Origin: Mangifera indica
Taxonomy: Eukaryota; Streptophyta; Magnoliopsida; Sapindales; Anacardiaceae
Assembly (NCBI RefSeq): GCF_011075055.1
Contig: NC_058150.1
Coordinates: forward strand, 12,925,408-12,989,407
Direction of reading: 5' to 3'
Length of the DNA: 64,000 nucleotides
Under the pieces are notes generated by a model. The model saw only the letters and a list, made by a program, of their open reading frames with translations. It ran no database searches and was not told the origin of the DNA. The position numbers and the translations under genes were made by a program. This document shows positions 1 to 54,432 of the stretch, in pieces (within the stretch, counting starts at the first letter, position 1; each line of letters starts with the position of its first letter).

Positions 1-441
1 TTGATTAAAGGTAATTTGGATTTTATATTTAAAATCTAAAATCTAAAAAAACTCTGGCAGTCCAATTTATCTCTCTGGCAATTCTGATTTTGTTTACAAT
101 TCAAAGCAAATTTTCTTCAAAACTCTAGAACCATTAACCTGTCATGCTGACGTTAAATATTCCAGGCATAGATGTAAGCAAAAATGGTTTATAATTTATT
201 AAAACTTTACTTAATTACTCTACTTTTCATATAAATTTAAGTATTAATTTAATTTTAATTTGCTTGTCCGTGGAAAGAAAATTTGTAGCTAAAAGACAAG
301 GAAAGAAAGAGCAAGGAAGCAACCCCTCACCGATTCCAATTCCTATATGTGCACGCTTCATTTGTAAGCACGTATTTGCTTGCTTTTCTCGTTCATACAA
401 AATTATATGTGTGTAATTTATTATGTGCATAGGTGGGAAAG
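1..441. other. Upstream region of gene 1, no gene seen
   Basis: AT-rich sequence before the first coding exon of gene 1. The intron 3' border just before the HLH exon of the paralogues (TGTAATTT...TGTAG, then GTGGGAAAG) has a clear counterpart at about 412-440. The short first exon of the paralogues (MEAISVGSDPR type) is not found here, so gene 1 either lost it or starts at the ATG at 442. The reverse-strand ORF in this stretch looks like chance. Confidence 0.5.
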
Positions 442-3290
442 ATGGAAAACGATGAGGGAATCAAGTGTTTGCTAGATTTAATTGAATGGTGCAAGAAGAA
501 CTTCAATCCTGAAAATGGTGGAAACCTCGGTAAAACCATAACCTTCCTTCAATCTCTTCAACAAGAAATACAGGTAAACATTCTATGGTACTTTATTATT
601 GAGAGTTGAAAATTTTTATCATCATAAAACTGGTCTTATGGTTTTGGTTTTTTATTTTATTTTATTATATATTCCAAGAGTATGAGTAAATATTAAATTG
701 AAATCATATCAAATAAATTAACTATTTTTTTTTTGTTTTAATTCAAGAAATTAATGAAGTGGTTAATTTACTTAATTATGAGGAATCATACTTTGATGTT
801 AATGTTTTCGATCCTGCTTTGTCCGATCATCCGAAGTGACATAGTTTCTTCCTTCCATTAGGAAATTGAATGTTTACTACCACCGCAAGGAGCAGCACCT
901 ACATCTTTCAATACCCATGGAACAGATCTACAACGTGGGCAGGTTTTTCCATAATGCTACTCTTCATTAATGTTGTATTAGGAATAGTTTATATGATTTT
1001 ATATTAACCTATGAGGAATAACACTTGCAATTTTTTCCTTTTTATTTAATTGAAAACACAAAGGAGATCGAATCTTCAGCACTGCAGGGAGACGCATTTG
1101 GGTCTAATCCCCACGTCAATGAACAGGTAACCATTTCTCTCTCTCTCTCTTTTTTAATTATACAATAGTAAATAGAAAACATTCAATTGTTTTTGTTCCT
1201 GCTTTGTCCGATCATCTGAAGTGACATAGTTTCTTCCTTCTATTAAATATGTGAAGGAAATTGAATCTGCAGCACATCAAGGAGGAGCAGCACCTACATC
1301 TTTCAATGTCCATGGAACAAATCTACAACGTGGGCAGGTTTCACCATAATGCTACTCTTTTAATTATACAATAATAATGTTTTTTAGTGAAATTGTTTTC
1401 ATATAATTAATTATTATAATATTGCCTCAATTAAAGAAAAATAAATATATTCAGTTATTTGTTAGCTGGGTGGTCCGGTTAAATAGAAAAATAAATAATA
1501 TTTAGTCATTTGCATTTTATTATTTATTAGGTGAAAATTTGTTTGTATGTTAACAGGAAATCACTCAAATAAGAAAACAAAACACCAACTTTGGATCAAC
1601 TCTAAATCAAGGGATTAATATGGAGATGAATAAAAAACGAAAATTGAGGTCAGATGTTTGGAATCACTTCATAAGGTATAGACATGAAGATAAAGAGATG
1701 AAGGCTCAGTGTCAACACTGTAAGAAATATTTTAATGGATCAAGTAAGAGTGGAACTACACATCTCAGAAATCATCTAAAAAGTTGTTTGAAAAATCAAA
1801 ATATAGTAGCAGACAAAATGAAAGAGTTGAGTGTGGTTGATCAAGAGCTGAATCACTGTAATTTGGCGCGAAAGGTCATTAAATATGGGTGGGACAACAT
1901 AAAAGATGATATAATTGAGGTTTATGAAGAAGAGAAAGATAAGTTGCACAGATATTTAGCTAAACTTCCTGGTCGTTTTAATGTAATAATTGGAAAAGAT
2001 ACAGGGTATGGTGTTCAGTTTGTGAAGATTTGGTTTATTGATGATAAATGGAAATTGAAAACGAGGCTTATTCATTGGAAGAATTATGATAGTGATGGAG
2101 AACCCTTAAATGAAGACTCTCTAAAGCGTTTGATTCAAGATTGGAACATGGATAAAAGAATTTTGTCTATGATTGATCACAGGGTTGATCCATCAAAAGA
2201 TTTGGTACCTCAGCTTACCAATTGGCTTAATGAAAGAGTTTCACTTCCTGTCATCGGGAATTATAAGACATGTCATAAGTCATTAGGTGGTTTTGAATTT
2301 AGTGTAAAATTTGTGGCAATGGGAAGTGACATTATGTCCGAAGTGAGGGAACTAAAAGACTACTACATGACATCATCAAACAAATATAAGTTTGACTTAG
2401 CGGTAAAACAAGTTGAGTCCATGGGTAAAAAAGTGACTTCCAAATATAATGATGTTTCTTGTCTTTATAATTTCAAATTGCTTGATTGGGCAATGGGATA
2501 TAAAGAAGTATTTTGTGAACTGAAGCGCATAGATCCTGATTTCACGTCTTCCAATTTTGATTGGGATGACGCTGCTTCACTGCACAGTTATTGGGTAGTG
2601 TTTGAAGATATAAAAAATGATATTTGGAAACTGGAAATTGATATTTGGGAACCGGAAGATGATTCTGAGTTGGCAAATGATTCTAAGTTGGCAAATGAGT
2701 GTTTCCCTATGGTTTATCACTTTTTTTTAAGAATGCTACGGTTCAAAAATACTGAAAATCAGTACTTTCGCCTTGCTGCATTACGTTGCAGAGAAGTTTT
2801 TGATGAACATTGCAACAACATAGTAACTGTAATCCCAGTGATTCTGGATCCAAGATTTAAACTAGATATTGTAGAGCGTTTCTACAATGAAGTTTATGAT
2901 AACGAGGGAGACTTACACTTCAAGAAAATCATGGATGATGTTAAAAATATTTACAATAAATATGCGACGGATGTCAACAATTCTTCCATGGTGATAGCAA
3001 ATCCAAACGAGGCTGCTTCATCAAAATCAGAATTCGAGCGCTATTTGACAGCTGACAAGGTTCCTCCACTTGAAGGCTTTGACATACTGGAATGGTGGCG
3101 TAAGAATTCTCCAACTTACCCAGCATTAGCTATGATGGCTCGGGATTTCTTATCCATTCCTATTGTTGATTCTCCTTATGTGTATTTTGCGGATGACGTC
3201 ACTGATATTTATTATATGGATTTCGATGTTGGCTTAAAAGATGTTTCGGCATGTACAAAAGTTTGGTTAAACGACCATGATTGTATGTAA
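442..3290 (+). CDS. HLH-BED-hAT chimeric protein, copy 1 (five exons, about 696 aa)
   Basis: Proposed exons are 442-573, 862-942, 1064-1126, 1257-1337 and 1557-3290. Every junction is AG/GT and phase 0, giving 44+27+21+27+577 codons. Exon 1 encodes an HLH-like segment (EGIKCLLDLIEW, then TFLQSLQQEIQ). Exons 2-4 are small and each starts Glu-Ile. Exon 5 carries a BED zinc finger (C171, C174, H188, H192; motif QCQHC then HLRNH) and a hAT-transposase body with IDDKWKLK, VILDPRFKLD and ILEWWRKNSPTYPALAMMAR. The catalytic Asp positions of active hAT enzymes (TTD-W and DNAS-ND) are missing, and the ASE-FS block after LSIPI is absent. It is probably a nuclear DNA-binding protein and not a transposase. 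Donors of exons 2 and 4 (GTTTTT, GTTTCA) are weak. If translation starts at 1620 instead, only the 556-aa BED-hAT part is made. Confidence 0.72.
811..1370 (+). repeat. Tandem duplication of a 27-codon exon with its intron flanks
   Basis: The exon at 862-942 and the exon at 1257-1337 are the same length and share the core AAPTSFN-HGT-LQRGQ. The similarity continues into the introns: CTGCTTTGTCCGATCAT and ACATAGTTTCTTCCTTC lie before both exons, and CCATAATGCTACTCTT lies after both. The exons are 395 bp apart. Both are phase 0 at each end, so the duplication keeps the frame. Confidence 0.8.
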
Positions 3291-22498: not shown

Positions 22499-24649
22499 AT
22501 GGAAGCAATATCCGTGGGATCCGATCCTCGTCTCTATTTTCAAGTTAAGTATTTGTTGTTTCATTCATTCGTGTTAAATCCATGCTTCTTTCTAATACTT
22601 GTGTAATTTATGTAGGTGGGAAAGATAAAAATCAGCGAGGGAATGAAATGTTTGCAAGATTTATACAATGGTACAAAAACAACTTGACCCCAGAAAATGC
22701 TGGAATCCTTGATGAGTCCATAGCCTACCTTCATTCTCTTCAACGACAAGCACAAGTAACCTTACTTACTGTTCGTCTTGTTTAAAACTGTTTTTGTGGC
22801 TTTGGTTTTCTATTCAACTACACTTTTTTCAAATATTAGCTTTTGGGTCCTTGGATTGAGCTGAAATTGTTCAAATCTGAAGAACAAATATGCCACTTAG
22901 TGTTTCTTGGCCAATGTCTCCTTCCTCGCTAGTTTGACCTGGTTGCCTTAGATTTGTTTAAGATGAGTCCATTCAGCTTAATTTTATATTTCTTTTATTG
23001 GGTATTAGGTGATAGAGTTTATGTATATTAACGGAAAATCATTGAAATAAAAGGACAAACTGACAATTTTAGAACTGCTCTAAATGAAGAGATTGTGTTG
23101 GATGCAAATTTGGACAATTCATCATATTCCAAATGAAAAAGATAATCAAACGATTAAGATGAATTCACTTTTATAGATTTAAATGGGAAGAAAATGACTC
23201 GGTGTAATCACTATAAGACAAATCTTATAGTAACAAGGGTGAAACCATATCTCTCATATATCTTTTAAAAATATGTCTTGGTTTGAGAGATTTACTTGGA
23301 ATAGCAAATAAAGCAAAAGAGGAAAGTGTTATTGATCGAAAACTGAATGACTTTGATTTCGTGCAAAAGATTATTAAGTATGGGCTAAACGGGATAAAAA
23401 ATGGTATTCTTGATGTTTACAAACAAGAAAAGGATAAACTTCGTGGATATTTGAAAAAACTCCCATTTTGTTTTTCTTTAGCTTTTGATGTGTTTTTCAC
23501 AAACTTATTTGGCTATCAAAGTCCGATTTATTGATGATAGTTGGGAGCAGAAGGCCTTGGTTATTTGTTTGGAATAAATTATATTCGACACATATGAAAC
23601 AATTCTTAAGCGTTCGCTTGAGAAATCTATGATTGACAAAAAGATATGCTCTAGATATTTCAGTGACTTCAGCAGTGTTGAAATTAATACGATCAATGAC
23701 ATTTTTGAACCGGGTTCACTTCCTATCATTGGGAACTCTGTTCCAGTTGTTTCTTTACTGGAGCATCTTGAACATCATGTCATACAGGGTGGATGGCAAC
23801 ACATAATTTTAGATAAAGTGAGGAATCTTTTGGGCTATGTCAGGTCTTCAACAAATGGTAATAAGTTCCAATCTTCTGTTACAAAGGCTCTATCCATGAG
23901 CAAAAAAATTACTTCTCAAAGTTTTCCTACAGAGCATGAGAACGTGTATTTGCTTGGGTGTGTGATTGGATATAAAGAAGCATTTTGTGAACTGGAGCAT
24001 ATAGATACAAATTTCAACTCAATAAATTTTACAAAAGAGGATTGGGTTAAGACAATTGCATTGCACTGCATTCTGAAAGTGGTAAAAGGTGCTTTCCGTA
24101 GCTTGTATAAAGGCAAAACAGCTGCACTTGTGCATCTCCAAGTGGTCTTTGACATTTATTTTAATTTGCTTCAATGGAAAAACAGTGATGATCATTATGT
24201 TCAAGGGATAGCATCAGGGTCAGGTGCATTTTGTGATCATTTGCGGAACACTTGTAAAGTGATGAATGTAATTCTTGATCCACGTTACAAAATGGATGGC
24301 ATAGAACAGTGGTTTAAAGAGAGTTATGGCAATTTGGCGGACACTTAACTTCAGCAAAGTATTGAAGTTACTAGGAATGTTTATATTGAATATGCAAGGG
24401 GCATCAACTATGGTGATAGAGCTATCTCAAGTGCTTCACCAGAATGGAACTCAACAGCTATTTCAAGAATCCTAAAGCTCATTCTGGTGGAGAGTTTTGA
24501 CATTTTAATTTAGTGGTGTCTCAATTCCTTCACACATCCCACGCTCACAAGGATTGCACAGGATTTTCTAATGGTGCCTAAATTTAGGGGATTTGATTGT
24601 CCCGTGGTGACAGACTAGTGTTGTTACAAAACTTTGGTTGTCTTATTGA
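22499..24649 (+). pseudogene. HLH-BED-hAT family copy 3, inactivated
   Basis: Former exons are 22499-22543 (MEAISVGSDPRLYFQ), 22616-22755 (HLH) and about 23032-24649. A 1-base deletion near 22656 shifts the HLH frame. The acceptor before the last exon changed from AACAGG to AACGG. In the BED region an Arg codon became TGA near 23136 and the second Cys of CxxC became Tyr. Another frameshift lies near 23535. The long stretch 23629-24348 still reads LLEHLEHHV, GYVRSSTNGNKFQSS, GYKEAFCELEHID, LKVVKGAFRSLY, NVILDPRYKMDGIEQWF and ends at a TAA that replaces a Tyr codon. Part of the C-terminus is deleted. It is closest to the gene at 42586-44793. Confidence 0.9.
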
Positions 24650-32155: not shown

Positions 32156-32874
32156 GGCCAAAGCACTCGTTCTGACCCAAAGTATGCTGCATTCCGAAGT
32201 TTCCACCTTTTAACTTTGAAAATCTTATTTATCCACCTATGAACAATTAAAGTTAACGATTCCCCCCTCCCCTCAAATTTTAAAAATTAACAATTTTCTC
32301 TTTTAGACCAAGTTCTAAAAAATCACATTCTCCCCCCCCCCCCAGGGTTTAGTTTCAATATTTGGTCACTTTTTCCGACGACATCGCCATCCATCTCTCC
32401 TTCCCAACGGTTCTCCTTCCTCCAATGGTTTGCCTCAATGAAATCCCAACTCGTCCGACGACAAAGACGAGATCGATCGTTGATCTTGTCTTCATCTGGG
32501 AAGATGAATGACAACACATGCATTCGGAGGGGTTAGGATTTCATTGAGGCAAACTATCAAAGAAAGAAGAACCGTCGAGAGGGAGAGATGGTCGGTGATG
32601 ACGTCGAAGAGAGTGACAGATGTTGAAACTAAACCCTAGGGGTGAAATGTGATTTTTTAAAACTTGGTTTATGAGAGAAAATATTAGTTTTTTAAATTTA
32701 GGGAGAAAAGAAAATAAAATTTTAGTTTATTTTTAATATTATATATAAAATAGTGATTTTATCTTTAAAATTAACAGACTTAACAACCCATGAATGGATA
32801 AATGAGATTTTCAAAACTAAAAGATTGACGCTTAAAAATACAATATACTTTAGATGGAAATAAGTCATTTGGCC
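32156..32874. mobile_element. Foldback MITE, GGCCAAA family (719 bp)
   Basis: Begins GGCCAAAGCACTCG and ends TAAGTCATTTGGCC. The flanking 9-mers AAAAAAACT and TAAAAAATT match at 7 of 9, a probable target duplication. The two arms are inverted: CTAAAAAATCACATTC, a C run and AGGGTTTAGTTTCAA face GTTGAAACTAAACCCTAGGGG and GTGATTTTTTAAAACTTGG. The non-coding centre is GC-richer (CGACGACATCGCC, GTCGGTGATGACGTCG). It is Mutator-type by duplication length. Confidence 0.72.
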
Positions 32875-34740
32875 TAAAAAATTACATATAAAATCACTTT
32901 AGGTACTTGATTAGTCAATTAGTCAAGTTATATAGCATAAATAAATAAATAAATATGTATATATATATATATATATATATCAATCAATCAAGATTCCATT
33001 GGCAGATTAATGGTAGATCCTGTTGAACAAAATACACTGTGAAAGAAAATAGTCTTTAGCAGGAAAATTATACCGATGGAGTAAATATTTAATTTTTATA
33101 AATACTATTTCGAGATTTTAATGATGAATTATTTGTATTTTTGTTATAACTAAACAAATTTAAATTTTTAGTGATAGATTTTTCAAATTTCTCACTAAAA
33201 AATTTATAAGCCGGTTGTTATTAGTAAGACTTGTCCCGAATCAAGTTGACTTAGTTTCGAAACTTTGTTCAATTCTGTTTAATTCAACTCGAATTCGAGA
33301 TGAGTTTAAACCAAGAGGGTCAACTAGTTTTTAAGACTAAATCAAACCTAAACTGAAGGGAGTTTGATTCGATTTAACTAGAGTTCAGTTCGATTTAAAA
33401 ATTGCATCAAATCATTTAGTTTGAATTCGAACTAAATATATTTGAGTTGAATTAAATCGAATTGAACTGACTTTTGAAACTATATCAACTCGATTCAAAT
33501 CTAAATATACACTAACCGAACTAATTCGAGCTTATTAAAAAGGCTCAACTGCAATGAGCCTAAACAGTGCATGTGTTTTTTGAGATACAATTTGCCGTAG
33601 TTTGGTGTAGCACCGAAAGACGTTCTTTGATATTAAAAGATATGAAATAACTTAAATAGCATTACAAAATCAAAATAGCTATATCAATATTTCCATTCCA
33701 CTTCTCCAAACAATATCTAATTAGTTTTCCAAATTCCGTGGTCATAATAACTGTGGGTGTGGGCATCGTGGCCAATTTACTCATCAACAATAGCCCTAAC
33801 CCTTATATAAACCTCCTTTGCTTCTTACTCTATTTTAATAGCTATGTTCATATGACTTCAAAAGTATTGATTAATTTTGGATACTCCCTCAAAGTAGCTA
33901 TTTAAATTAATTTCTCTTTTAAATATTATATTTTGGTTACAAAATATTTGAATTTTTTATTTTTTATATTTAGTTTAGTCCTATTAAAATATATATCTTA
34001 CACTTTAAATCCCTTTAACCTAAAATTCTTATTTTTATTTCTTGAATACGCCAAGGGCCTAGACCTTACTTGTACAAGTCCTTATGAGTAGGGCCCATTT
34101 CCACTTCTCCTTAATATCTAACCTAGACTAGGCTATGCGAGCACAGGTTAAACTTGCACCAAACTAGTTTAGGCTTAAAAATTGACTTGAGTCAATTTAG
34201 TTTAGTTCAAATTCTTTTAACTCACATTTTTGATTTAAAAAATTTGATTTATTTTTAAAATTAAATTGAGTTCAAACTAAAGAAAAATTGATTTGGTTTG
34301 ACTTATGAGCTGAATAGATGATTTAATTTGATTCAAATTTGACTCATATCTTAATTTAAATTATGTTAAGTAATTATTAAAATAATATTATTTTATCTAT
34401 TATTTGATAAAATAATAACAATTTGTCACTAATTTGAACCATAAATATAAATCACGAATTTAAATTATAAATTTGAATTAAATTATTTTTATTTAAGTCA
34501 AATTTAAATTATTCTTAATTTTGAACCAATAAATCAAATTAAACTCAAACCAATTTATGATCCATTAAAATTGAATTCGAGACGAGGACTACTCGGTTAG
34601 GGCCCAATTCTATTCTGTCCACCTCTAGCACATGCCCGTTTGGACCATGAGCAACGCTAGGCTTAGGAGCCCTAAACGCCCCGTTTTACCGGCGTTATAC
34701 ATCTTATAATAGAAGAGAATAATGGTTAGAAACTACTGAA
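32875..34740. other. Intergenic DNA with MITE-like stretches
   Basis: A short AT microsatellite lies at 32957-32980. The parts at 33235-33560 and 34140-34600 are rich in GTTTGATTCGA/TCGAATTCAA-type motifs seen in small hAT-type MITEs, and the latter ends CTGTCCACCTCTA. The part at 34045-34115 (AAGGGCCTAGACC, CAAGTCCTTATGAG) and 34620-34720 correspond to the duplicated distal promoter of the other copies, so 34120-34620 is probably an insertion within it. No gene. Confidence 0.4.
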
Positions 34741-34793
34741 ATAAAATATTTAAATATTAATGGTACATCTTGCACTAATCAGCACGATCTGGG
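34741..34793 (+). promoter_or_regulatory. Conserved promoter block of the gene at 34898
   Basis: ATATTTAAATATTAATGG, GTACATCTTGCA and TAATCAGC are shared with 42403-42441 before the paralogue, at a comparable distance from the ATG (about 105 and 145 bases). The TATTTAAATA stretch could serve as a TATA element. Confidence 0.45.
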
Positions 34794-34897
34794 AAAAGAT
34801 ATGACTTGTCGGCCACCACAAAAGCCTAACGAAGTTGCCCTAGATCCTATGTTTACACTGAACTGAAGGGTTTCTCTGTTTTTCTTATTGAAAGGCC

Positions 34898-37126
34898 ATG
34901 GAAGCAATATCTGTTGGATCTGATCCTCGTTTTTATTTTCAAGTTAAGTATTTGTTTTCTCATTTATTCATGTTAAATCCATGATTCTTTCTAATACTTG
35001 TGCAATATCTGTAGGTGGGAAAGATGAAAATCAGTGAGGGGATAAAATGTTTGCAAGATTTGGTACAATGGTACAAAAACAACTGGACCCCAGAAAATGC
35101 TGGAATCCTTGATGAATCCATAGCCTACCTTCAATCTCTTCAACGACAAGCACAGGTAACCTTACCAACTGTCCGTCATGTTTAAAACTATAGTGGTTCT
35201 GGTTTTCTATCTAAGTACACTTGCTTCAAATATTAGCATCTGGGTCCTTGGATTGAGCTGAAATTGTTTAAATCTGAAGAACAAAATGCCACTAAGCGTT
35301 TCTTCGCGAATGTTTCCTTCCTTGCTAGGTTTACTCGGTTTATCTTTCATTCAGCTTAATTTTATTTGTCTTTTTATTGGGTATTAGGTGATAGTGTTTA
35401 TGTATATTAACAGGAAATCATTGAAAATAATGAGCAAAATGACAATTCTGGACCTAGTCTAGATGAAAAGATGGTGCTCGATACAAATTTTCTGAATTCA
35501 TCATGTTCTAAACGAAAAAGATGGACAAATGATTGGGAAGACTTCATCTCTTTAGGCTCAAATGAGAAGGAATGGGTTCAATGTAAATATTGTAAGAGAG
35601 ACTTTGTAAGAATAAGTAAGAGTGAAACCTTACATCTCAGGCATCATTTAAAAAGATGCCCAGGTTTGACAAATCATGGTGCAGTAGGTAAAGCAAAAGA
35701 GAAAAGTGTGATTGATCGAGAATTGACTTGCTTTGATTTGGTGCGAAGGATTATTAAGTATGAGATAAATGGCATAAAAGATGAAATACTTGATGTTTAT
35801 GCACAAGAAAAAGATAAGTTGCAGAGCTATTTAGATGAACTCCCAGGTCGTTTTAATGTAACAATTAACTTATTGTCGAAAGACAAGGTTGACTTTTGGG
35901 TTATGACAGTTTGGTTTATCGATGATAGTTGGGAATTGAAGAAGAAGATTATTCAATTGGAAAATGATGAAATGGGAGTAGACTTACTTGAAAGAGTGAA
36001 GCGTTGGTTTCTGGATTGGAACATAGACAAAAGAATATTGTCTATAGCTGCTAAAAATATTGACAATGGAATATTTTATTTAGCTTATGCATATAGATAT
36101 GCATCAAAGGTTATTGAGCTTAAAAATTGGCTTAATGAACGGGTTCCATTTCCTTTCATCTGGAATACATGTCCTAATTTTTTAAGATATTATGTAAATA
36201 AAGTTAGATATCAATCGTCGCATCTTGTTTACATTGACGCGAAGCAGCTTGAGGACTACTATGTGAAGTCGTCAAACAAATATAAGTTTGAATTAGCAGT
36301 AAAAAAAGTTGAGTCCATTGGTAAAAAAGTAACATCCAAAAATAATGATAGATTTCCTCTTCCAAGTTCTGATTTGCTTGATTGGGTAATAGGATGTAAA
36401 GAAGCATTTTGTGAATTGGAGCATACAGATCCTGCTATCAAGTCTATCAAGTTTAATTGGGATGATGCAACTTCGGTGCAAAGCTTTTTGGCAGTGTTAA
36501 ATGAAGTTTCTAAAATTAAATTGGCAAATGAGTTTTTCCCTCTTCTTTTGAAAATGCTGAAGTTTGTAAAAAATGGATATTATCTCATTCACAGCATTGC
36601 AAGATTATGCGGAGAACTGCTTGATAAAACTAACATGGTTTTTGTGATCACAGTCATTCTAGATCCACAATTTAAAATGGATATTGTGGAACATTTCTGC
36701 AAAGAATTTCATGATAATGAGGCAGACTTACACTCTAAGAAAATCATTGATGATGTTACAAATATTTACAATGAATATGCAAAGGATGTCAACAATTCTT
36801 CCATGGTGAGACAATATGCATTTCCAAATGAGGTTGCTTCATCAAAATCAGAACTCAACTGCTATTTGACAGATTCCAAGGTTCCTCTATATGAAGAGTT
36901 TGATATACTAGAATGGTGGCGGGTTAATTCTCCAACTTATCCAACACTAGCTATGATGGCTCGTGACTTCTTGTCAATACCTATATCTGAGCCCTTTCTT
37001 CCAACACATTTTGATTATTCTTTGAAGAATGAAGTTGAAAATATTTATACTGGTGGGTTGGATGACGACTTAAAAAATGCTTTGGTATGTTCAAAGGTTT
37101 GGTTGAAGGACCCTGCAAATGTATAA
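34898..37126 (+). CDS. HLH-BED-hAT chimeric protein, copy 4 (three exons, 632 aa)
   Basis: Exons 34898-34942 (15 codons), 35015-35155 (47) and 35414-37126 (570 plus stop) are joined at GT/AG borders in phase 0. Exon 2 encodes an HLH segment (KMKISEGIKCLQDLVQW, then AGILDESIAYLQSLQRQAQ) very like helix 1 and helix 2 of plant bHLH proteins. The basic arm is reduced to VGKMK and lacks the His-Glu-Arg contacts. The last exon has a BED finger (QCKYC, HLRHH; C119, C122, H136, H140), a hAT RNase-H-like body with VWFIDDSWELK and VILDPQFKMD, and the C-terminal block FDILEWWRVNSPTYP...MARDFLSIPI at about 558-586. Catalytic Asp positions (TTD-W, DNAS-ND) and the CAHILNL and ASE-FS blocks are lost. It is likely a nuclear dimerising DNA-binding protein. 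Starting at 35471 would give only the 551-aa BED-hAT part. Confidence 0.8.
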
Positions 37127-37138
37127 TGAAGTTGTTGA

Positions 37139-37144
37139 AATAAA
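37139..37144 (+). terminator. Candidate polyadenylation signal
   Basis: AATAAA lies 12 bases after the stop, in the 3' sequence shared with gene 1 (GAAGTTGTTGAAATAAAAAT). Confidence 0.45.
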
Positions 37145-37171
37145 AATATTTGTTTTATATTTTTCCCAATT

Positions 37172-37380
37172 AGTCCTTTCTTTTGCTATCTTGCTTATAT
37201 TTATTGTCTCTGCTTCTCTTGAGCTTTATTGGTCAGCATTTTAATTCTAAAGCTCAAGTTTCGGCAGCAGCCCTCTTTGTTGCCATTGCAATTCCATTTC
37301 CTCCAAGTCTAAGTGTGTTGCATGGCTCTGTATGCAATCTCTCTGTTAATTATTTTGATCTTCAAAACTTACATTTAATT
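37172..37380 (+). pseudogene. Broken relative of the small membrane protein
   Basis: Encodes FVAIAIPFPPSLS and, after a frameshift, YAISLLIILIFKTYI. This matches the C-terminal half of the protein at 24679-24990 (ITIPFPLILK, YAISLLIILISKYYF). The N-terminal half is missing or scrambled. Confidence 0.7.
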
Positions 37381-37837
37381 ATTCTGTACTATTTTATCTT
37401 TGTGGTGTTGCCGTAATTTTCATTTATCTTTTGATTGTTGCTGTAATAATTGTTACATGATTTAATGAATTACATTATTTTATGAGGATAACCGATAAAT
37501 CCGGAAGCAAGACCTGAATTATGATACTACAAAATCCATTTATCTTTTGATTCTATGTGCTTGTAGCATAACATTCTCTATAATAAAAACATGTATAATT
37601 ATTTAAAGAGGATTAATTTCAATTATCAATTAAACTTGTCTTTTGAATATATTTGATTACATTTTTTTATCGATAATTGAAGAGTCTAAATTTAGTTGTA
37701 TGTCCAATTTTTTATTGCTTAATCTTTTCTTTAATGATTTGCAATGTTCCTTTTTTAACCAGATAGAACTAGGTGAAGCCAATTTCTAGACTTTGGATTG
37801 AATATCAGACTATCCAAATTGTTCCCACTTTTTGTCT

Positions 37838-38083
37838 GCACAAATTGAATCCCAACTCCCTGTTTCTTTTCATATCCTCTCTTATGCTGTCTTGCTTATC
37901 TTTCTTTCTCTGTTTCTTTCAACCTTTATTGGTGGCAATTTTACTTCATGAGCTCAAATTTTGGAGAAAGCATTAGGCCTCCTGGTTACCACCACTGTGG
38001 TTTTCACCATTGCAATACCTTTTCGTCTGAGCCTCAAGTGTGTTTGGTGGATTCTGTATGCAATCTCCCTTATCACTATTTGA
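37838..38083 (+). pseudogene. Relative of the small membrane protein with one in-frame stop
   Basis: A continuous 82-codon frame reads AQIESQLPVSFHILSYAVL, then a TGA at 37949-37951, then AQILEKAL, TTTVVFTIAIPFRLSLK and WWILYAISLITI. It aligns end to end with residues of the ORF at 24679-24990. A single stop is the main lesion, and the C-terminus ends a few residues early. Confidence 0.8.
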
Positions 38084-38491
38084 TATGCAGAGCTCGTTTT
38101 TAATTACTTTTTACTGTTTATCTTCTTTTTGTTGTAATTGTGGTGGAGTATGAATAAGGAATTGAAGATATGTTCTTGTAATTGTGAATATTTGGGTCAT
38201 TATTTATTATGTAGCAGGAAAGAGAAAGACATCTTGGTCCGATCAGTAGAATGAAGGGTAGAGTGGATCACAAGGTTTTTTTTTTTTTTAATTGAAAAAA
38301 TCAACCTTTTTTAGTTTTTTTCTTTTGACTTGATTAAATTTAATCGAACCTTACTATTTTTAAAAGTTTAATTTTTTCAATAAAAATTTAAAAATTCAGT
38401 CATTTAAGTAAAAATCAAAATTATATCTTTAATAGAAAAATGTAATAATTTCATATTTTCAAATATTGTTATCCCTTAGATTATATATATG
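38084..38491. other. Downstream flank of the unit
   Basis: Contains a short match (TATTTATTATGTAGCAGGAA and AGACATCTTGG) to the flank after 24990, then AT-rich sequence up to the hAT-type element. No gene. Confidence 0.4.
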
Positions 38492-40149
38492 TAGGGGTGG
38501 ATTCGAGCCGAGTCGGCTCAAGCTCAAAATCGAGCTCGACTCGATTGAGCCCGAAACGAGCTAGGTAATAACGAGACTGATCTCAAGCTCGAGCTTCAAT
38601 TTTCAGAGAAACCGAGCTCGAGCCTAAATACGAACTCTAAGTCGAGTAGCTCGCCTTGGCTCGCGAGCTAGTGCTTGTCAAGGCTCGTGAGCTTTGTTGG
38701 TTAAGAAGTGCTACTCTTCTCAAAGTGAAAATTTATAGTGTATGATTCTTCCCAATCTATGATATTTGTTATCTGTTAACTGCTCTCAATTTGGGCTGCA
38801 TGCCAAGAAAAACATCGAGGAGCCAACGGAATAGTCAGTCGAGACAATACCTTAATTTGGGCGCCCAAGAGCACACTAATTTAGAGAACATCACTTTAGG
38901 ACATCAGACTGTTAATCAACATTACATGCCACGTAACTCTACTTTGATGAAACCCATAAGCATAGATGCAACACAAAATCCTGTTGTTCAAAGCAATATC
39001 AATTTGCTCATATGGGTTCAAGTTGACATTCACAAAGATAATTGTAAATTTTGACATTATTTAAATTGCAATACAAGTGGGTGCTTAATTTTTATTATTA
39101 GATTAAATAATATTTATCTAATTTTTATTATTTATACAAATATAATAAAAAAAACTTTTGTCAAAATTACCCATGTGTTACGTCAACCTGTTTATTGTTT
39201 TGTTAAAACTTAAGAGAATTTTATTTTGTTCATTTTCAATAAGTGATTAATATAAGAGGATTGATTCCATACAATCAAATTTAAAAATTCAATTTTAATT
39301 TGAAAAATTAAATAACATATGGTATAATTAAATGTTTACATATATTAAAGTAATGTTGATGTAAAATTTATTTTATTTTGAATTTTAGATGAAATTAGAA
39401 ATGGGGTTAAAATGATTATTAACTCAAAATTTTTTTACATTTGTATAATAAATAAAAATTAAGGTAAAATTGTTTATCCAATTAAAAAAATATTTTAATT
39501 TATTTAAAGAAAAAATTCCAATTAAAATTAATGTATACAGATTAAAATAGGATAAAAGAAGTCAAGTTAATTAAGTTATTGTCCGAAAAATGAAAAATTA
39601 TTATGAAAACCAAAAAAACCCTCGCTTGATACACAACTAACAACTAACAAACAAGAATGGAAGTTGCAGGGAGTGATTATCTGCTGAATTAGTTTTGTGT
39701 TTATTCTTGAAAATATTTAAAATATATAAATAGATTGATTTACAAACAATGAAAATGTATTAAACAATGTTTAAATAAAAATAACATTTTGAAATTGAAA
39801 CTGTGATCCTGTGAATAAGCTTGTTAGGCTCGGCTCGACAGTTCGCTAGATAGCTCGGCTCGATGGCTGGGCTCATTAAGAATAAGCGAGCCTAGCTCGA
39901 TATCTTGGATCGTGAAACATATTCGATTTTTAACTCATTATAGGCTCACGAGTAGTTCGGCTCGGTATATATTCCAAGTCAGACTTGTTAAAGGCTCGTG
40001 AATAGCTCGCAAGCCAATGAGCTCGAACATGAGCTGCATTTTCATTATGTTTGACGAGCTCGAGCTGTGGCTCGACTCGAGTAAATAGTTATCAAGCTGA
40101 TACCGAGTTTGCCTGTGTTCGAACTTGGCTCGGTTCGAATCTTGCCCTA
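38492..40149. mobile_element. Non-autonomous hAT-type element (1,658 bp)
   Basis: Ends TAGGGGTGGATTCGAGCC and GGTTCGAATCTTGCCCTA form an imperfect terminal inverted repeat. Flanking 8-mers TATATATG (38484-38491) and TATACATG (40150-40157) match at 7 of 8, the duplication length of hAT elements. Subterminal parts are dense in GAGCTCG, CTCGGCTCG and GCTCGTGA motifs on both sides, while the middle (38740-39800) is AT-rich. An 87-codon ORF at 38791 has no known domain, and there is no transposase. Confidence 0.75.
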
Positions 40150-42402
40150 TATACATGCAACTAAAATTTGAATTCAAAGTCGGATATCCAGATGGAATTT
40201 TGGGATATTGACTTGGAGCCAATGTCTTTTTATGTTAATTACTTTTGCATCATCTTCGTTTTTCTGGTTGTAAATTGCTTGAGAGTTATCTTATTGTTAT
40301 TGTAATTTTCATGCATTTCTTATTGTTGATTGGTGTAATAGTTTTTACATGATTTCTGGGAGTACATTATTCCACTACCACAATTGATAAATCCATGGCT
40401 ATATGTAAAAATGTCACCTTAATTTATGTTAACAGTAGTATATTTATTTTTATTGATGTAATCTATGTTATGATACAATAAAACTCCTCTTCGATTGAAT
40501 GCATAATAATCAACACTAATGTGACTAATTAGTGACAAACTATAAGAGTAATGATTAGATACGTAATCTATTCGTCAATCATAAAAAAACTCAGTTTCTA
40601 AAAGGTTATTTTCCTATTCTCTAGATGTGTCCATAAGAAAAGCAATTGACTCATATAAAATCAAGATCATGGTATCAATGTAATCATTTTGTTTCTGTAT
40701 GATCAAAATAAGAATAAATATCTAAAATCATATTAAATTTATAAATATTAAGATATAATATTTGCATGTAATTATATTACTTTGTGTTATAAACATTCAA
40801 TCTAAGAATCGAGGATTGAAAAAGAGACACAATACTTTATTGTATTTGCATTGTTGAAATACTTTCATAGAAATATATATATAACTTTGGGTGTAAGCCC
40901 TTAACAATGTATCAAACTACATTAAAAACATTTTTGTGTACAATTTATTTATGTTTTTATTTGTATATTCATAATCAAATTCAATCATTAATATAGTTTA
41001 ACAAAATTATTTATTTAATTTTAATTGTCATTATCATATTATTTCTCACATAAGACGTTGTATTGTGTACTTTTCATTTACTGATGAAAAATCTTATTAA
41101 CAATTTGACACTAGAGGATGACCCATTATTGAAAATACTTATCTATTGTCAATCTCTCACATATTCGTCTTTCCGATTGCCTGTTAAAGAAAGAATGAAA
41201 AAGTTTTGATTGGTTGCATTTTTAATGAATTTGACTTTGACCATATGTTGTCACTACCTAGGATCATCTGTTTGTACAATTCAAAATCAATTAGCCTTGA
41301 CAGTTGGAACACACTAGCCAACATTCCTTTATGGTTTGCACAACCATATATGGCAATTTGTGACTCCACTAATCTTGCCCAACAAATACATGACACTGTC
41401 CCAATAGCACAAACATTATCAAGAGGCCTAATTCCCTCAAAAGGTTATGTCACAACAAGAACACCAATTTTTCACATAATTACCATTTATTCTTTTAGAT
41501 GATGAGGATAAAATGCCTTTAGATAGAGGATTTCAAACTCACTCTAGTTTATATAAAATTATTTTCTATATTGAGACAAATTTGTCTAATCTTATTTTAA
41601 TGGGTATATTTGTGGTACCCTTAACATATTGGCTAATTTCATACACTCCCTTAAAAAAAAGCTATTTTAATTAATATTTCTTTTATACATCTATTAGTTT
41701 GGTTATAATTCTATCAAATTTTTAGTTTGATTATTTCTTTCTAATAAATAAATTTGGTTAATGAATATTTTCATTTTTTTAATTTTTATATTTTATTTAA
41801 TATATATTTCTTGCACATCCTCTCTAGATATGATACAAACAATATCATTAAAACCACTTATATAAAATTCTTACATGGTTTTGAATATAATATGAGCCTT
41901 GGGCCCATGCTCTACAACATAGCTTTTCAAACTAGATTGGATCAATCGATCCAAATCAGTTGACCGATCAACCGATTAGATCATATATAAAATTAGATTT
42001 GATTCAATCAATATAAAAAATTGATTTTTTTTCAAAAATTAATTACAAAAGCTTGAATTAAAACCTTATTTTTTATATTTAAATATATATATATAGAATT
42101 ATTTTAATATTAAATAAATTAAATTATATATTTAATTATAAATTATACAAATTTTTTTAATAATTAATTGATCTGATCACTAATCAACCAATCCAATCAC
42201 TAAATAGACCTAATCGCTCCTCCGCCTAATGGTATCATGTCCAATTATAAAAGCATTGTTCTACAGCTGTTGCAAGCTCTTTTTATTACGGCGCGGATCA
42301 GCCTGTCCCTAGGATCCGGCCCGGACCATGAGCAGGCCCTCGTTTCGTCAGCTTTATAGAGCTTATGACTGCAAATAAAAATGGTTGGAAACTAGTGAAT
42401 GG
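40150..42402. other. Intergenic DNA with a relic of the membrane-ORF 3' flank
   Basis: The part at 40270-40400 (TTATTGTTATTGTAATTTTCAT, TTTTTACATGATTT, TTGATAAATCC) resembles 37380-37510 and so is another relic of the duplicated unit. The part at 41206-41502 holds a 98-codon ORF (ISLDSWNTLANIPLWFAQPY) I cannot assign. The part at 41930-42240 is rich in GATTG/CAATC motifs. About 42250-42340 matches the distal upstream block of the other copies. No supported gene. Confidence 0.4.
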
Positions 42403-42441
42403 AATATTTAAATATTAATTGTACATCTTGCATTAATCAGC
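42403..42441 (+). promoter_or_regulatory. Conserved promoter block of the gene at 42586
   Basis: ATATTTAAATATTAATT, GTACATCTTGCA and TTAATCAGC are shared with 34741-34793, and the CTTGCAT...ACTGGGAGAGTGTGC part is shared with the pseudogene copy. Probable core promoter region. Confidence 0.45.
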
Positions 42442-42585
42442 GTGCACTGGGAGAGTGTGCTAGTAATAGTAACAGAGAGTGAGTTTATTTCAGATTTTAA
42501 ATTTGCTTCTACAAAAGCCCGACGAAGTAACCCTAATTCCTGTACTTACACTGAAGGGTATCTCTGTTTTTCTTATTCAAAAGCC

Positions 42586-44793
42586 ATGAAAGGAATATCC
42601 GTTGGATCTGATCCTCGTCTTTATTTTCAAGTTGAGTATATGTTTTCTCAGTTATTCGTGTTAAATCTATACATCTCTCTGATACCTGTGTAATTTCTGT
42701 AGGTGGGAAAGATAAAAATCAGTGAGGGAATGAAATGTTTGCAAGAATTAGTACAATGGTACAAAAGCAACTTCACCCCAGAAAATGCTGCAATCCTTGA
42801 TGAATCCATGACCTACCTTCAATCTCTTCAACGACAAGTACAGGTAACCTTTCATACTGTCCGTCATGTTTAAAACTGGTTTTGGTTTTCTATTCAAGTA
42901 CACTTATTTCAAATATTAACATCTGGGTCCTTAAATTGAGCTGAAACTATTCAAACCTGAAGAACAAAATGTCACCAAGTGTTTCTTGGCCAATGTCTCC
43001 TTCTTTGCCGGATTGTCTTAAATGTGTTTCAATGGAGTTGTTTGATTTTATAATTTTTTTATTGGGTATTAAGTCATAGAGTTTATGCATATTAACAGGA
43101 AACCATTGAAATAAAACAACAAAATGACAAATTTAGAACTACACTAAACGAAGAGATGGTGCTGGATGCAAATTTGGAGAATTCATTGGGATTCAAACGA
43201 AAAAGGTGTTCGAACGATTGGGAAAACTTCATTTTTGTGGACTCAAATGGGGAGGAAAGGGCTCAATGTAAATATTGTAAGAGAGATATAGTAGTATCAA
43301 GTAAGAGAGAAACCAGATTTCTCAAATGTCATTTACAAATATGCCCTAATTTGAGGAATCCAAATGCAGGAGCAAATAAAGCAAAAGAGGAATGTGTGGT
43401 TGATCGAGAATTGAATGGCTTTGATGTGATACGAAAGATTATTAAGTATGGGCTAAACGGGATAAAGAATGGTATAGTTGATGTTTACAAACAAGAAAAA
43501 GATGAACTTTGTGGATATTTGGAAAAAATCCCATCTCATTTTACTTTAGCTTTTGAGGTGTTTTCCACTAGGGACAGTTCCCTTTCATATTTGGCTATCA
43601 AAGTTGGATTTATTGATGATAGTTGGAAACAGAAGGCTAGGATAATATGTTTAGAAGAAGTTTTTTTAGGTCCATATGAAAAAGTTTTGAAGCGTTTGCT
43701 TGAGAATTTTAACATTGACAAAAAGATATGCTTTGTTCATTGCAGCTATTTCAGCAGTGCCAAAATTAAAAGGATCAATGACATTTTTGAACGAGGTTCG
43801 CTTCCAATCATTGTGAACTTTGTGCCAGTTTTTTCTTTACTAGAGCATCTTGAACATCATGTATTATGGGGTGGATGGCCATACAAAATTTTAGATAAAG
43901 TGAGAAGTCTTGTGGGCTATGTCAGGTCCTCAACAAATGGTAATAAGTTCCAATCTTCTGTTAAAAAGGCTCTATCCATGGGCAAAAAAATTACATCTCA
44001 AAATTTTCCTCCTGAACCATATGAGAATGTGTATTTGCTTGAGTGGGTTATTGGATATAAAGAAGCACTTTTTGAACTGGGGCATATAGATACAAATTGC
44101 AATTCAATAAATTTTACGAAGGAGGATTGGGATAAGACAATCGCACTGCATAGCATTCTGAAAGTGGTAAAAGGTGCTTTTCGTAGCTTGTATAATTGCA
44201 AAATTATCACTGCACTCTTGCATTTCCAAGTGGTCTTTGACATTTATTTTAATCTGCTTCAATGGAAAAACAGTGATGATCATTATGTTCGAGAGATAGC
44301 ATCAGGGTTTGGTGAATTTTGTGATCAGTTGTGGAACAATTGTAAGATTTTAGTGATGAATGTAATTGTTGATCCACGTTTCAAAATGGATGGCATAGAA
44401 CAGTGGTTCAAAGAGAGTTACGGCAATGAGGCAGACACTTACCTTCAGCAAATCATTGAAGTTACTACAAATGTTTATATTGAATATGCAAGGGGCATCA
44501 ACTATGGTGATAGTGCTATCTCAAATGCTTCACCAGAAGTAGAACTCAATAGCTATTTCAAAGATCCTAAAGTTGATTCTGGTGAAGAGTTTGACATTTT
44601 AACTTGGTGGCATCTCAATGCTTCCACTTATCCCACACTTGCAAGGATTGCACGAGATTTTCTGCCAGTGCCTAAATTTACAGGATTTGGTTATTCCGTG
44701 GTGGCAGATGATGAACAGATTTTGATGAATCCAGACTTGGATGGTTATCTAAAACTAGTTATGTTACAAACAAAACTTTGGTTGTCTTACTGA
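42586..44793 (+). CDS. HLH-BED-hAT chimeric protein, copy 5 (three exons, 626 aa)
   Basis: Exons 42586-42630 (15 codons, MKGISVGSDPRLYFQ), 42703-42843 (47) and 43099-44793 (564 plus stop) join in phase 0. The HLH exon (KIKISEGMKCLQELVQW, AAILDESMTYLQSLQRQVQ) is the closest of the set to plant bHLH sequences. In the BED finger QCKYC is kept but the usual HLxxH reads FLKCH, so the first His ligand is Phe, and zinc binding may use H140 and C144 or be weak. The hAT body keeps VRSLVGYVRSSTNGNKFQ, GYKEALFELGHID, LKVVKGAFRSLY, IVDPRFKMDGIEQWF and FDILTWWHLNASTYPTLAR-IARDF. Catalytic residues and the ASE-FS block are missing. It is most like the pseudogene at 22499-24649. Starting at 43156 would give a 545-aa form. 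Confidence 0.8.
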
Positions 44794-45387
44794 ATATATG
44801 AAATTAAGTTTCTGTAGCCTCTTGAAAGTTGAATCCCCTTACTAATTTGAAACACCTGAAATTTTGCAGTGCATGTGTTTATACAGCTCCATTTAAAGTT
44901 CTTATTGTTTAGTTTCTTATTGCTTACCATGAATATGAAGTCTTTACTAATTTGGAGATTCAGAAACAAGAATCAAAGTGTATCAATTGTAGACATGTGC
45001 ATCTGTTCAATTACTAATTATTAGAAATATTCCTAAATGGTAAGATTCTTAGTACTAATATTGGTAGGGGGCATTTTCAATGGAACACCCCTCCATAAAT
45101 AGGCGTATGCGACGATGAGCAGTGAGCAGAAAGTATTTTTTATTGGGACTTAGATTTAGATTTGATTGGGGTTTGAGTTGGAAAACAATGAGAAAGGTTA
45201 GTGAGGACATTTTGTTTTGGACGCTGAAGATGAGAATGGTGAGTGCATTTTCGTTATACAAACAAAAGACAGAACAGTAATTTAAACTGATTTATATACA
45301 AGATTTTACCTGATTCAGGCGACACGTCGAACCTTTTTGTACTTGGACTTATTATTCACGAGCTATGTAGTTATTCAACACTTTATG
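44794..45387. other. 3' flank of copy 5 and intergenic DNA
   Basis: No membrane ORF follows this copy, unlike the copies at 22499 and 34898. The reverse ORFs at 44787-44969 and 45055-45261 have no domain. AT-rich. Confidence 0.4.
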
Positions 45388-46281
45388 TATACACGTTAAT
45401 TGGGCTAGGCCCGGCACAAAGCATGAAAGGAAAGCCTGGCATGAGAAGACCCCGTCTGATGCTGTAGTATGTGTCGCTAGACCCATGGGCCTATCAGACT
45501 GGACTTGGGGTTTTACTATGAAGCCATGGGCTACGCGCCCGGTTTGATACTGTATATAAAAAAAATATATTTTTTTCCTTCTACCTTGTGGCGGAAGCAA
45601 GCTTTTGCCAAGGCAGAGGCAAAATTTGCTTCTGCCACTTGGTAGGCAGAAGCCATTGGCCTCTGCTTAATTTTTTTTAATTAATTTATTTTTTTATATA
45701 AACCCATTTAATTTTTCTTTATTTTCATTTTTATTTATAAATCTCTCAATCTGAATTATTTCATTATATTTTCAATCTCATTTTCTCTTATCAATTCTCT
45801 TTCAAAAAATATCTGAATTCGTAAATAATAATTTTTTGTGTTTAAATTTTATTTTTATTTTTATTTTATTATTACAAAATATTTGAATTCGTAAATAATA
45901 ATTTTTTGTCTTTGAAGAATTTAGAGATTTGGATGTAGAAGATGAATAGATAAATATTATATAATAGATATATTTTATTTATATTTTGTAATTTATACAG
46001 TATGTAAATTAATTTATTTGTACTATGTTATCAATTTATAATATTTTTTATTATATAATTATGATATTCCTCTATCATAAGTGAGAGATTATAAATAAAA
46101 TATTTGAGGTACTATATTCAGTTTTAATAATTAAAAAATAATTTGTATTTAAAAATTTTAATTAAAATTTCTTTTTTTAAAATATTGATTAAATGGGTTG
46201 GGTTTTATATATCAATGGGTTGGCCCGACCCATTAGCTCGATGGACTGAGTCGGAGCTGACCCAGCCCATTGACACCTTTG
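45388..46281. mobile_element. Non-autonomous hAT-type element (894 bp)
   Basis: The right end, read inward, is CAAAGGTGTCAATGGGCTGG and the left end has ACACGTTAATTGGGCTAGG, a diverged terminal repeat typical of plant hAT elements. Flanking 8-mers ACTTTATG (45380-45387) and ATTTTATG (46282-46289) match at 7 of 8. The subterminal part is GC-rich (GGGCTAGGCCCGGCAC, GGTTGGCCCGACCC) and the interior has a TTTGCTTCTGCC/GGCAGAAGC inverted motif near 45630. No transposase. Confidence 0.62.
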
Positions 46282-46773: not shown

Positions 46774-47512
46774 AGCCAAAAAATTTATTCCCACCCAAGG
46801 TTTAGTGTATATCCAAACTCTTACCTACGGAGTTTCAAAAACCCAAACACTCACTTATGGACTGTTAAAGTTAATAAAATTTGTTAGTTTTAACGGTAAA
46901 ATCATCATTTAACTAGTGATACTAAAAAAATAAAACTTTATCTCATTTTCCTCCTAAACCCGAAAAAGTAACAATTTTTCTCCTTGATTAAACTTTGAAA
47001 AATTGCATTCTACCTTTACGGTATCCATTTTTCGACAAACCCTTTTCCTCTCTGACAACCAACACCTTCCCTTCTTCTAGACTCGTCTCTGTCAACAAAG
47101 ATGATTGAAAATCATCTTCATTGATTCGATAAATGATTCTCATATTCATTTTTTGTCTAGATGAAGACTAGTCTTTTCTTGCGGAGATGAGACTGGAAGA
47201 AGGGAGAGAAAGGGTCGAAGGGTGCTAGCTGCCAAAAAGAGAGAGAATTTGCTGAAAAATGGAAACCCTAGGGGGAAATGTAACTTTTCAAAGTTTAATT
47301 CTTGAAAAAAATTGTTAATTTTTAGGTTTAGAGGGGAAAATGAGATAAAATTTTATTTTTTTATTATCACATGTTAAATGATGATTTTACTTCTAAAAAT
47401 AATAGATTTTATTAATTTTAACAATCTATAGGAGGTTGTTTGAGTTTTTGAAACTTCACGAATGAGAGTTAAAATATACATTAAACCTTGGGTGGGAATA
47501 AGTCTTTTGGCC
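46774..47512. mobile_element. Foldback MITE, GGCCAAA family, perfect 9-bp target duplication (739 bp)
   Basis: Flanked by TTTTAGATA at 46765-46773 and 47513-47521. The left end AGCCAAAAAATTTATTCCCACC and right end GGTGGGAATAAGTCTTTTGGCC are inverted copies. Arms pair over much of the element (CCTTGATTAAACTTTGAAAA facing TTTTCAAAGTTTAATTC). The GC-richer centre is non-coding. The 9-bp duplication places the family with Mutator-like MITEs. Confidence 0.85.
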
Positions 47513-49745: not shown

Positions 49746-50027
49746 GGGTTAGATTTAAATTAAACTCATTCAAATTCAAGTTCAAACTCAGTTTGAACAA
49801 GTCTAAAATGAATTAAGTTTAAATTAACACAAGTTCAGGAACTAAAAGTTTTAATATAAAATAACATTGTTTTGACTAATATATATTAAAACGATGTAAT
49901 TTTAATAACAAACTAATTAAAAGTTCAAACCAAACTCTAGTTTGACTCCTTTGAAACGAGTCAAGCTCGAGCTCGACTCTATTCAAATTCAAACCTAATT
50001 TCATTACAACAAATTAGATAAAAGATG

Positions 50028-50031
<4 letters not shown>
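49746..50031. mobile_element. Small MITE-like sequence
   Basis: Starts near GGGTTAGATTTAAATTAAAC and ends near ATTCAAATTCAAACCTAA, which are partly inverse, with CTCGAGCTCGACTC inside. About 260 bp. No clean target duplication was established. Confidence 0.3.

Positions 50032-50067
<36 letters not shown>
50032..50067. repeat. (TA)n microsatellite
   Basis: Uninterrupted alternating TA run of about 36 bases. Confidence 0.95.
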
Positions 50068-50070
<3 letters not shown>

Positions 50071-50954
50071 TCTTATATTTTTCAAAAGTTTGATAATAAA
50101 TATTCAGTCATTAAATTTTACGTAATGAAAGTTAGAACTTATCTATTGCCCAAAAGGACTTTCTAAAACTATCAGCATTTTAAAAATGATTTTAGGCTAC
50201 TGGTTTATATTTCAAACTTTCTTACAAAAATTTAAATAATCTATTTTACGATTTTTGGGAGAAGATGTGATAAACTCTTTTTAAAATTATTTAAAATATT
50301 AAAATTTAAAAAATATATATTATTTTATAAATTGACTTATCTTTAGTAAATTAATAATTGAAAACTCTTATATATATATATATATATATTAAACCATTAA
50401 CAAATATTCACAATAAATTTGCTATTACAAGCTTGACTAAGAAAAAGTTGAATGAAACCTAATAATATGTTGGGATCAATGTTTTTTTGATTGTTCAAAT
50501 GGATCAACGATTTCAATATAATATAATTAATATATATTTTAGTCGACATAATGTTAGCATGAGAGTGATATCGATTTAACCCAATGATTGAATTGTGACT
50601 CAATACAATTCACATTATTCAACTTTGAATTAATCTAATTTAATAACTAAAATGGAGTTTAACCCTAATTTAAACAGGGTTTGTTACTAGTTTTCCGTCT
50701 TATCTGTTTTAAAACATTGACAAGATATTAAATATCTAATTAATGAGAGAGACTATGTCTAATTAAAAATCCACAATGACATTTAGTAAGACAAACAAAA
50801 GCACCCCAACATGTGAAGCAAAAGCCTGTTCTTGAACCGCCTCTAAAAACAATATCACCGAGTCTCCTTTTCTTCCTGTGAATCGCTTTTCTTTCTTATT
50901 GATTCTGGTTCTATAAATATTTCTGTTCTTTGCATCTAAAAGAAGCAAAAGCTC

Positions 50955-51092
50955 ATGGTGGTGAGGAAGAAGAAGAAGAAAGTAGGGAAGGTTTTCTTTG
51001 TTGGCTTCAAGAAGCATGTTTATACTGTTGTTTGTATTGATCATGATCAGGCACAAATCATGATAATGTCTGATTATTATCAATACACATGA
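50955..51092 (-). other. Reverse strand of the short ORF, no coding claim
   Basis: The 115-codon reverse ORF at 50763-51110 overlaps the plus-strand short ORF and has no known motif. Only the plus-strand frame is conserved in part in repeat unit C, so the reverse ORF is regarded as a shadow. Confidence 0.3.
50955..51092 (+). CDS. Candidate 45-aa basic short peptide
   Basis: The ORF starts MVVRKKKKKVGKVFFVGFKK and continues HVYTVVCIDHDQ. It has a Lys-rich N-terminus, a hydrophobic/aromatic middle and no Cys pair or signal peptide. A possible TATA element (CTATAAATATTT) lies about 40 bases before the ATG. The same segment in repeat unit C (from 55519) keeps MVKKKKKKK and, in another frame, GFKKHV but carries a stop. 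I do not recognise the family. It may be a short gene that was copied with the unit, or chance. Confidence 0.3.
   Translation: MVVRKKKKKVGKVFFVGFKKHVYTVVCIDHDQAQIMIMSDYYQYT

Positions 51093-54379: not shown

Positions 54380-54428
<49 letters not shown>
54380..54428. repeat. (TA)n microsatellite
   Basis: Alternating TA run of about 49 bases. Confidence 0.95.

Positions 54429-54432
<4 letters not shown>

Follow-up and report, generated by a model that had tools for sequence, protein, structure and literature searches.

How did a helix-loop-helix (HLH) segment that resembles plant basic helix-loop-helix (bHLH) proteins come to be encoded beside the body of a transposase, and has the combination been kept? 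The question is raised by a 64,000-nt stretch of the 391-Mb Mangifera indica genome (C14:12925408-12989407; hereafter the window, numbered from its first letter). Within it two genes, A and B, each consist of a 45-nt first exon, a 141-nt HLH exon, and a large exon encoding a BED finger and a hAT transposase body. A previous sequence-only reading proposed that a host HLH exon had been captured, kept, and amplified. The homology of this exon, its boundaries and phase, the copy number, the loss of the catalytic DDE triad, and an architecture common to the predicted proteins of two genera lead us to consider it likely that exon capture gave rise to a domesticated HLH-BED-hAT family specific to this lineage, whose members possibly pair with proteins of bHLH subfamily XII.

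As proposed, the HLH exons of genes A and B join their BED-hAT exons in phase 0. All junctions of both genes are GT-AG and phase 0 throughout, and the frames are open in the genomic sequence. The HLH segment had also been likened to helices 1 and 2 of BEE/CIB-type proteins. The generic Pfam HLH model and a PDB sequence search gave this weak or no support: Pfam HLH scored 17.8 bits for A and 15.6 bits for B (cut-off, 20.7), matched 2/10 additional exon peptides (including one composite), and matched 0/8 full-length relatives. Because the Pfam result alone was ambiguous, we built and used a subfamily profile from plant bHLH-XII-like proteins (best 120 of 457 at E ≤ 1e-8, retrieved with an approximate query sequence). 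Database names in this subfamily include bHLH49/63/74/75/77/78, BEE 2/3, and HBI1; we take the group label XII and the name CIB to apply to the matched proteins. The profile matched 12/12 family N-termini (14.1 to 43.0 bits; P, 1.8e-6 to 1.7e-15), so the parallel to the BEE/CIB-type helices held, and the profile search did not place the N-termini outside the HLH fold. The exon peptides alone scored 15.0 to 42.2 bits, while 24,000 shuffles topped out at 13.8. Among 4,234 open reading frame (ORF) peptides from a 264-kb region, the five family exons ranked first (16.9 to 40.3 bits; next, 7.7). In the alignments listed, the match started at profile position 16 to 18 and ended at 61 to 62 (QRQVE), and the match of the Pistacia protein P0007 was ungapped over 45 residues. 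The assignment to subfamily XII is that of one subfamily's profile, in a comparison that covered subfamily XII and generic Pfam HLH.

The nearest relatives of the exon were then sought in mango itself. A genome search with the subfamily consensus (150/231 candidates scored; 134 matches) gave two adjoining matches, at about residues 16 to 40 and 38 to 62, for at least 12 loci, the pattern that an intron within the loop would give. Among the candidates scored, only two loci gave a continuous match of >70% identity, C4:11557386 (73%) and C10:2396864 (75%); the remaining continuous matches, from other bHLH genes and fusion loci, were ≤56% identical. In the C4 and C10 genes (L051/L052), the HLH is a single 135-nt exon in phase 0/0 (CAG/GTT..GAG/GTA) that starts with VRREKIS and ends with QRQVE, with borders as in the fusion exon. 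Among mango loci that are not fusion copies, these two genes are also the best matches of the fusion exon. Exon B is identical to the C10 exon at 107/135 aligned nt (79%; blastn 115 bits, E = 7e-30 in a comparison among few short sequences) and exon A at 101/135; neither score was reached by any of 5000 codon shuffles. In at least three database ORFs from other plants among the best 120 (P0035, P0081, and P0096), breaks at the same two borders were visible by eye. The C4 and C10 exons differ by 0.38 synonymous (dS) and 0.01 nonsynonymous (dN) substitutions per site. This dS lies inside the range of 0.3 to 0.4 given for the recent whole-genome duplication of mango in the available part of PMC7059373; thus, the two genes are probably paralogues from that event. 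On the present comparisons, the lineage of these C4/C10 bHLH genes appears to be the likeliest source of the fusion exon. A likeness reached by convergence, from some generic helical hairpin or coiled coil, would account for a Pfam HLH model whose matches stay under the cut-off and which misses most members, but it is very hard to credit given the subfamily-XII profile matches, the DNA-level homology, and the matching exon borders.

Like subfamily XII, the fusion has both helices with residues specific to the subfamily, exon borders that fall just ahead of VRR and just behind QVE, and phase 0. Unlike subfamily XII, its basic region is cut before V11, its loop is longer by two residues where the exon codes for 47 aa, it has lost the proline that follows helix 1, and the FLSMKLA extension is replaced by the BED-hAT exon. 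The H5-E9-R13 pattern of the basic region (in what we take to be the usual position numbering, which also gives V11) was not found, and exon 1 is unrelated to that region. The E-box-reading residues H5 and E9 are absent because the HLH exon starts after them, in agreement with the reduced basic region described previously. Small, stand-alone HLH proteins of the atypical, basic-less kind are represented by PRE/KIDARI and IBH1; the fusion likewise has an HLH without an E-box-reading basic arm, but unlike theirs it is followed by a BED finger and a hAT body.

The BED finger scored over the Pfam cut-off in gene C, a third copy in the window, and in 6/8 relatives, and under it in A, B, P0001, and P0004. 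Its C, C, H, and C columns are invariant in 8/8 sequences; locus L024 has lost one C. An RNase-H-like body and a C-terminal dimerisation region follow (Pfam PF14372 and PF05699), and all 12 Foldseek matches at E ≤ 0.001 were to Hermes (mean predicted local distance difference test [pLDDT] of the query model, 62). In an alignment with Camellia and Rosa hATs, judged by eye and with parts missing in P0007 and P0008, the DDE triad was complete in 0/11 members: the first D is kept in P0002, P0005, and P0007, the second D in gene C, and the E in none; in gene A the DDE residues are replaced. No inverted repeat of ≥30 nt, the length covered by the search, was found in 34400-46000. Lacking the basic arm and, in every aligned member, the DDE triad, the family protein is, as far as sequence can tell, neither a bHLH factor nor a transposase, and transposition by the product is no longer expected. 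Domesticated hATs are known from the SLEEPER genes (DAYSLEEPER and RICESLEEPER), for which the available part of PMC3499209 describes a BED finger, a basic stretch, an hATC dimerisation region, and loss of the transposition residues. The Anacardiaceae family shares these features; unlike the SLEEPERs as described in that part, which mentions no HLH, it has one.

A genome search with the HLH exon gave 49 matches, comprising 42 loci of the fusion family, three bHLH genes (C4, C10, and C1), and four short pieces that lie at or next to loci included before. From the BED side, 150/610 candidates were scored (119 rows), and family counts are lower bounds; 49 rows (48 loci) at E ≤ 4.5e-11 formed a group restricted to three sequences, C14, C7, and C114 (a small contig); the row after this group had an E value of 5.4e-8. 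The family is arrayed in tandem on C14 and C7. At least 37 of the 48 body loci have an HLH exon ≤5 kb upstream on the same strand. Conversely, 5/42 HLH exons have no partner in the BED-side list, three of these being near a weaker BED-side row. Thirty HLH loci of the 42 were read, including genes A and B (L033/L034, on the chromosome and the small contig, are probably one locus); AG and GT splice signals are kept in 25, and the 15-codon exon 1 is present in 27 by a loose pattern, as it is in database proteins. Predicted proteins of both genera join the exons; those of M. indica include P0001, P0002, and P0004, and those of Pistacia vera and P. integerrima have the same N-terminus and body. These signals, the exon pairs, and the agreement between gene models of two genera make it improbable that the HLH and BED-hAT exons form separate transcripts or were joined only by gene-prediction software. 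That explanation draws on the exon join being known here from genomic sequence and gene models, a point that counts against the fusion, and on P0001, which has the body of gene B with another exon 1 (two residues differ); at least one gene model may therefore be wrongly chained.

A tree of 10 family members and two other plant hATs, with P0008 and P0011 left out, recovered the family as one group (100/100), a clade separate from the two hATs compared; it leaves the Mangifera-Pistacia order unresolved. Outside the Anacardiaceae, only two weak matches were found at E < 0.001 (7e-6 and 2e-5). Because the predicted Pistacia proteins have the architecture in common with those of mango, the HLH-BED-hAT fusion is probably older than the Mangifera/Pistacia split. 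Mean identity between the genera is 61% for the HLH exon, 67% for the BED finger, 59% for the dimerisation part, and 58% for exon 1, with 48% for the linker and 41 to 47% for the rest of the body. The proposal of a captured and amplified host exon is thus backed by the XII-profile matches, a probable donor exon in the same genome, 79% identical to that of gene B with the same borders and phase, 37 paired loci, and the architecture of the predicted Mangifera and Pistacia proteins.

Whether the fusion was also kept is a matter of constraint. The ratio of nonsynonymous to synonymous differences (pN/pS) was 0.61 for the HLH exon (16 stop-free exons, three with a lost acceptor; pairs are non-independent, and those with pS < 0.05 were dropped). 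This is similar to the BED finger (0.59) and indicates stronger constraint than in the adjoining stretch of ∼190 codons (0.82; 13 sequences, 75/78 pairs). The overall pattern reads as constraint that is modest and uneven, with copies steadily being lost. One could suppose, with the exon captured all the same, that the family consists of decaying transposon relics without a host role, whose open frames mark young copies. Such decay would explain the weak constraint (pN/pS of about 0.6), the stop or lost acceptor in 12/30 HLH exons read, the many truncated bodies, and the broken members of the tandem arrays. Yet in 25/48 bodies the open frame runs to ≥500 codons and the matched stretch is free of stops, the frames of A, B, and C are intact despite a body dS of 0.5 to 1.0 between them, and the predicted Pistacia proteins have the same architecture. 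In addition, a neutral simulation with substitutions only kept the frames of A, B, and C open in 0/2000 cases each at 0.2 substitutions/site or more (0.2 to 0.4). We therefore regard relics without a role as the less likely outcome, though one to be taken seriously.

Several further observations weigh against a domesticated family and temper the word "kept". Constraint is weak and many copies are broken, with both splice signals and no stop in only 18/30 HLH exons read, and 11/48 body loci have no paired HLH match (eight on C7 and three near C14:12.0 Mb). Across 35 helix codons, the 16 fusion exons differ from C10 by dS of 0.16 to 0.41 and dN of 0.22 to 0.40; set against the dN of 0.01 between the host C4 and C10 exons, this suggests that amino-acid sites of the exon changed almost as fast as silent sites after capture. 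Omega between A and B is 1.10 in exons 1 and 2. All the gene models are predicted, and two of them deviate, P0012 being without helix 2 and P0011 without the BED finger. Intron homology between the fusion loci and the donor genes was looked for and was undetectable, and thus gives no trace of how the exon moved. The AlphaFold prediction, which the sequence-only reading had named as a check, gave the two helices with a short loop between them (helix at 21 to 37 and helix at 41 to 84), with low confidence (helix pLDDT, only 62 to 67). Finally, HLH core positions are 91% hydrophobic, but this value (0.91) was equalled in 80/600 neutral simulations at similar divergence and is only suggestive.

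For the domesticated family that we favor, the following course may be envisaged. An exon coding for the two helices of a subfamily-XII bHLH (VRREKISERM..QRQVE; phase 0/0) would have been captured by a hAT-derived gene, with a short first exon ahead of it and the BED-hAT exon behind it, probably before the Mangifera/Pistacia split. The DDE triad was lost, and the family multiplied in the C14 and C7 arrays. Translated together with the BED-hAT exon, the basic-less HLH could still pair, with itself or with BEE/CIB-type bHLHs, while the BED finger and the KRKR stretch could let the product bind DNA and enter the nucleus; its role would be that of a regulator or titrator. The presence of HLH and hATC dimerisation surfaces, a zinc finger and a KRKR stretch (in A and B), without the full catalytic set or the E-box residues, suggests a protein that binds DNA and serves as an adaptor or competitor within the bHLH-XII network. 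More tentatively, and with somewhat greater doubt than belief, we raise the idea of a plant counterpart of vertebrate KRAB-transposase factors, in which a dead hAT with a BEE/CIB-type pairing surface is plugged into the bHLH network. If so, a fast-evolving tandem family would plug into the bHLH network of light, brassinosteroid, and defence responses, and bHLH factors would be titrated or brought to BED-bound, possibly transposon-end, sites.

Host exons joined to transposase-derived exons have precedent in vertebrates, as in KRABINER, SETMAR, and CSB-PGBD3 (available parts of PMC12062965 and PMC3459987). The mango genes share this arrangement, as read from genomic sequence, but differ from those fusions as described there in that a plant dimerisation exon precedes a hAT body, in dozens of copies. 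No described bHLH-BED-hAT family was found in the open-access literature searched for this architecture, as far as the accessible text of those sources goes; one keyword match, PMC7845737, was irrelevant in the content available. Both the SLEEPERs and the vertebrate fusions resemble the mango family, but in the latter a plant HLH exon is combined with a hAT body, repeated many times in tandem. The case is an unusually readable instance of plant exon shuffling, with the probable donor exon, borders, phase, and DNA homology still visible. On this evidence, genes of hAT origin seem able to acquire a dimerisation domain from the host and then to multiply, and the notion that host-transposase fusion yields new regulators becomes testable in a crop family (mango and pistachio).

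The copies inside the window are listed in Table 1. Gene C (433-3290) consists of the 141-nt exon, two copies of a linker exon, and the body; inspection by eye found no MEAIS-type exon 1. Its HLH exon had been placed from 442, which homology corrects to 433, 442 being only the first in-frame ATG; the other coordinates of the earlier reading stand. The copy previously described as broken, pseudogene D, indeed has its HLH exon split over two frames and stops in its body.

Table 1. Exons of the HLH-BED-hAT copies in the window
Feature	Position	Strand	Basis or remark
Gene A exon 1, MEAISVGSDPRFYFQ	34898..34942	+	Phase 0; GT donor
Gene A HLH exon, 47 aa, bHLH-XII-like	35015..35155	+	Phase 0/0; profile 38 bits
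Gene A exon 3, KRKR stretch, BED finger (under Pfam cut-off), hAT body, dimerisation region	35414..37126	+	Pfam, alignment
Gene B exon 1, MKGISVGSDPRLYFQ	42586..42630	+	
Gene B HLH exon, 47 aa	42703..42843	+	Phase 0/0; bHLH-XII profile 38-40 bits
Gene B exon 3, BED-hAT body, BED under Pfam cut-off	43099..44793	+	Pfam
Gene C HLH exon, diverged	433..573	+	Homology; 16-17 bits vs bHLH-XII profile
Gene C linker exon copy 1, EIES..RGQ type	862..945	+	tblastn with P0004
Gene C linker exon copy 2	1245..1340	+	tblastn with P0004
Gene C BED-hAT exon	1557..3290	+	578-aa open frame; zf-BED 31.2 bits
Pseudogene D: exon 1 (22499-22543), HLH exon (22616-22755), BED-hAT body	22499..24615	+	

Genes A and B are unevenly diverged. 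Their 5′ parts (34862-35670 and 42550-43355) are 91% identical over exons 1 and 2, with a dS of 0.085, and the body dS is about 0.8, being lower (0.43) in the first 160 codons. Given the dS of 0.085 against about 0.8, the 5′ part looks like a product of gene conversion or recombination. An A-B pair recurs ∼150 kb upstream (C14:12810898 and 12820952) with identical HLH exon peptides, which suggests a recent segmental duplication. The body of gene B is identical to residues 63 to 626 of P0001, a database protein of M. indica. The own exon 1 of gene B begins with MKGIS; the exon 1 of P0001 (MEAIS..RLYFQ), which differs from it at two residues, fits that of pseudogene D within the window and is also of a type found in paralogues at C14:12.36, 12.60, and 12.82 Mb. 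Equating P0001 simply with gene B was rejected on account of this difference; its record reflects a chained gene model, or else P0001 is a variant.

A repeated unit of 100 to 300 bp recurs downstream of fusion copies (24719-25014, 37174-37400, and 37833-38128; 68 to 77% alike) and is perhaps the relic of a co-duplicated neighbour. Three diverged tandem copies, 69 to 78% alike in pieces and with no listed open frame of >131 aa, occupy 48351-56376. Large palindromes, 64 to 91% self-complementary, lie at 21637-22193, 32270-32703, 46775-47511, 47581-48353, and 59219-59663 and are perhaps foldback elements. Minus-strand ORFs at 16931-18453 resemble, by eye, fragments of the endonuclease/reverse transcriptase of a long interspersed nuclear element, and overlapping long minus-strand frames at 13326-14337 are built from diverged tandem repeats.

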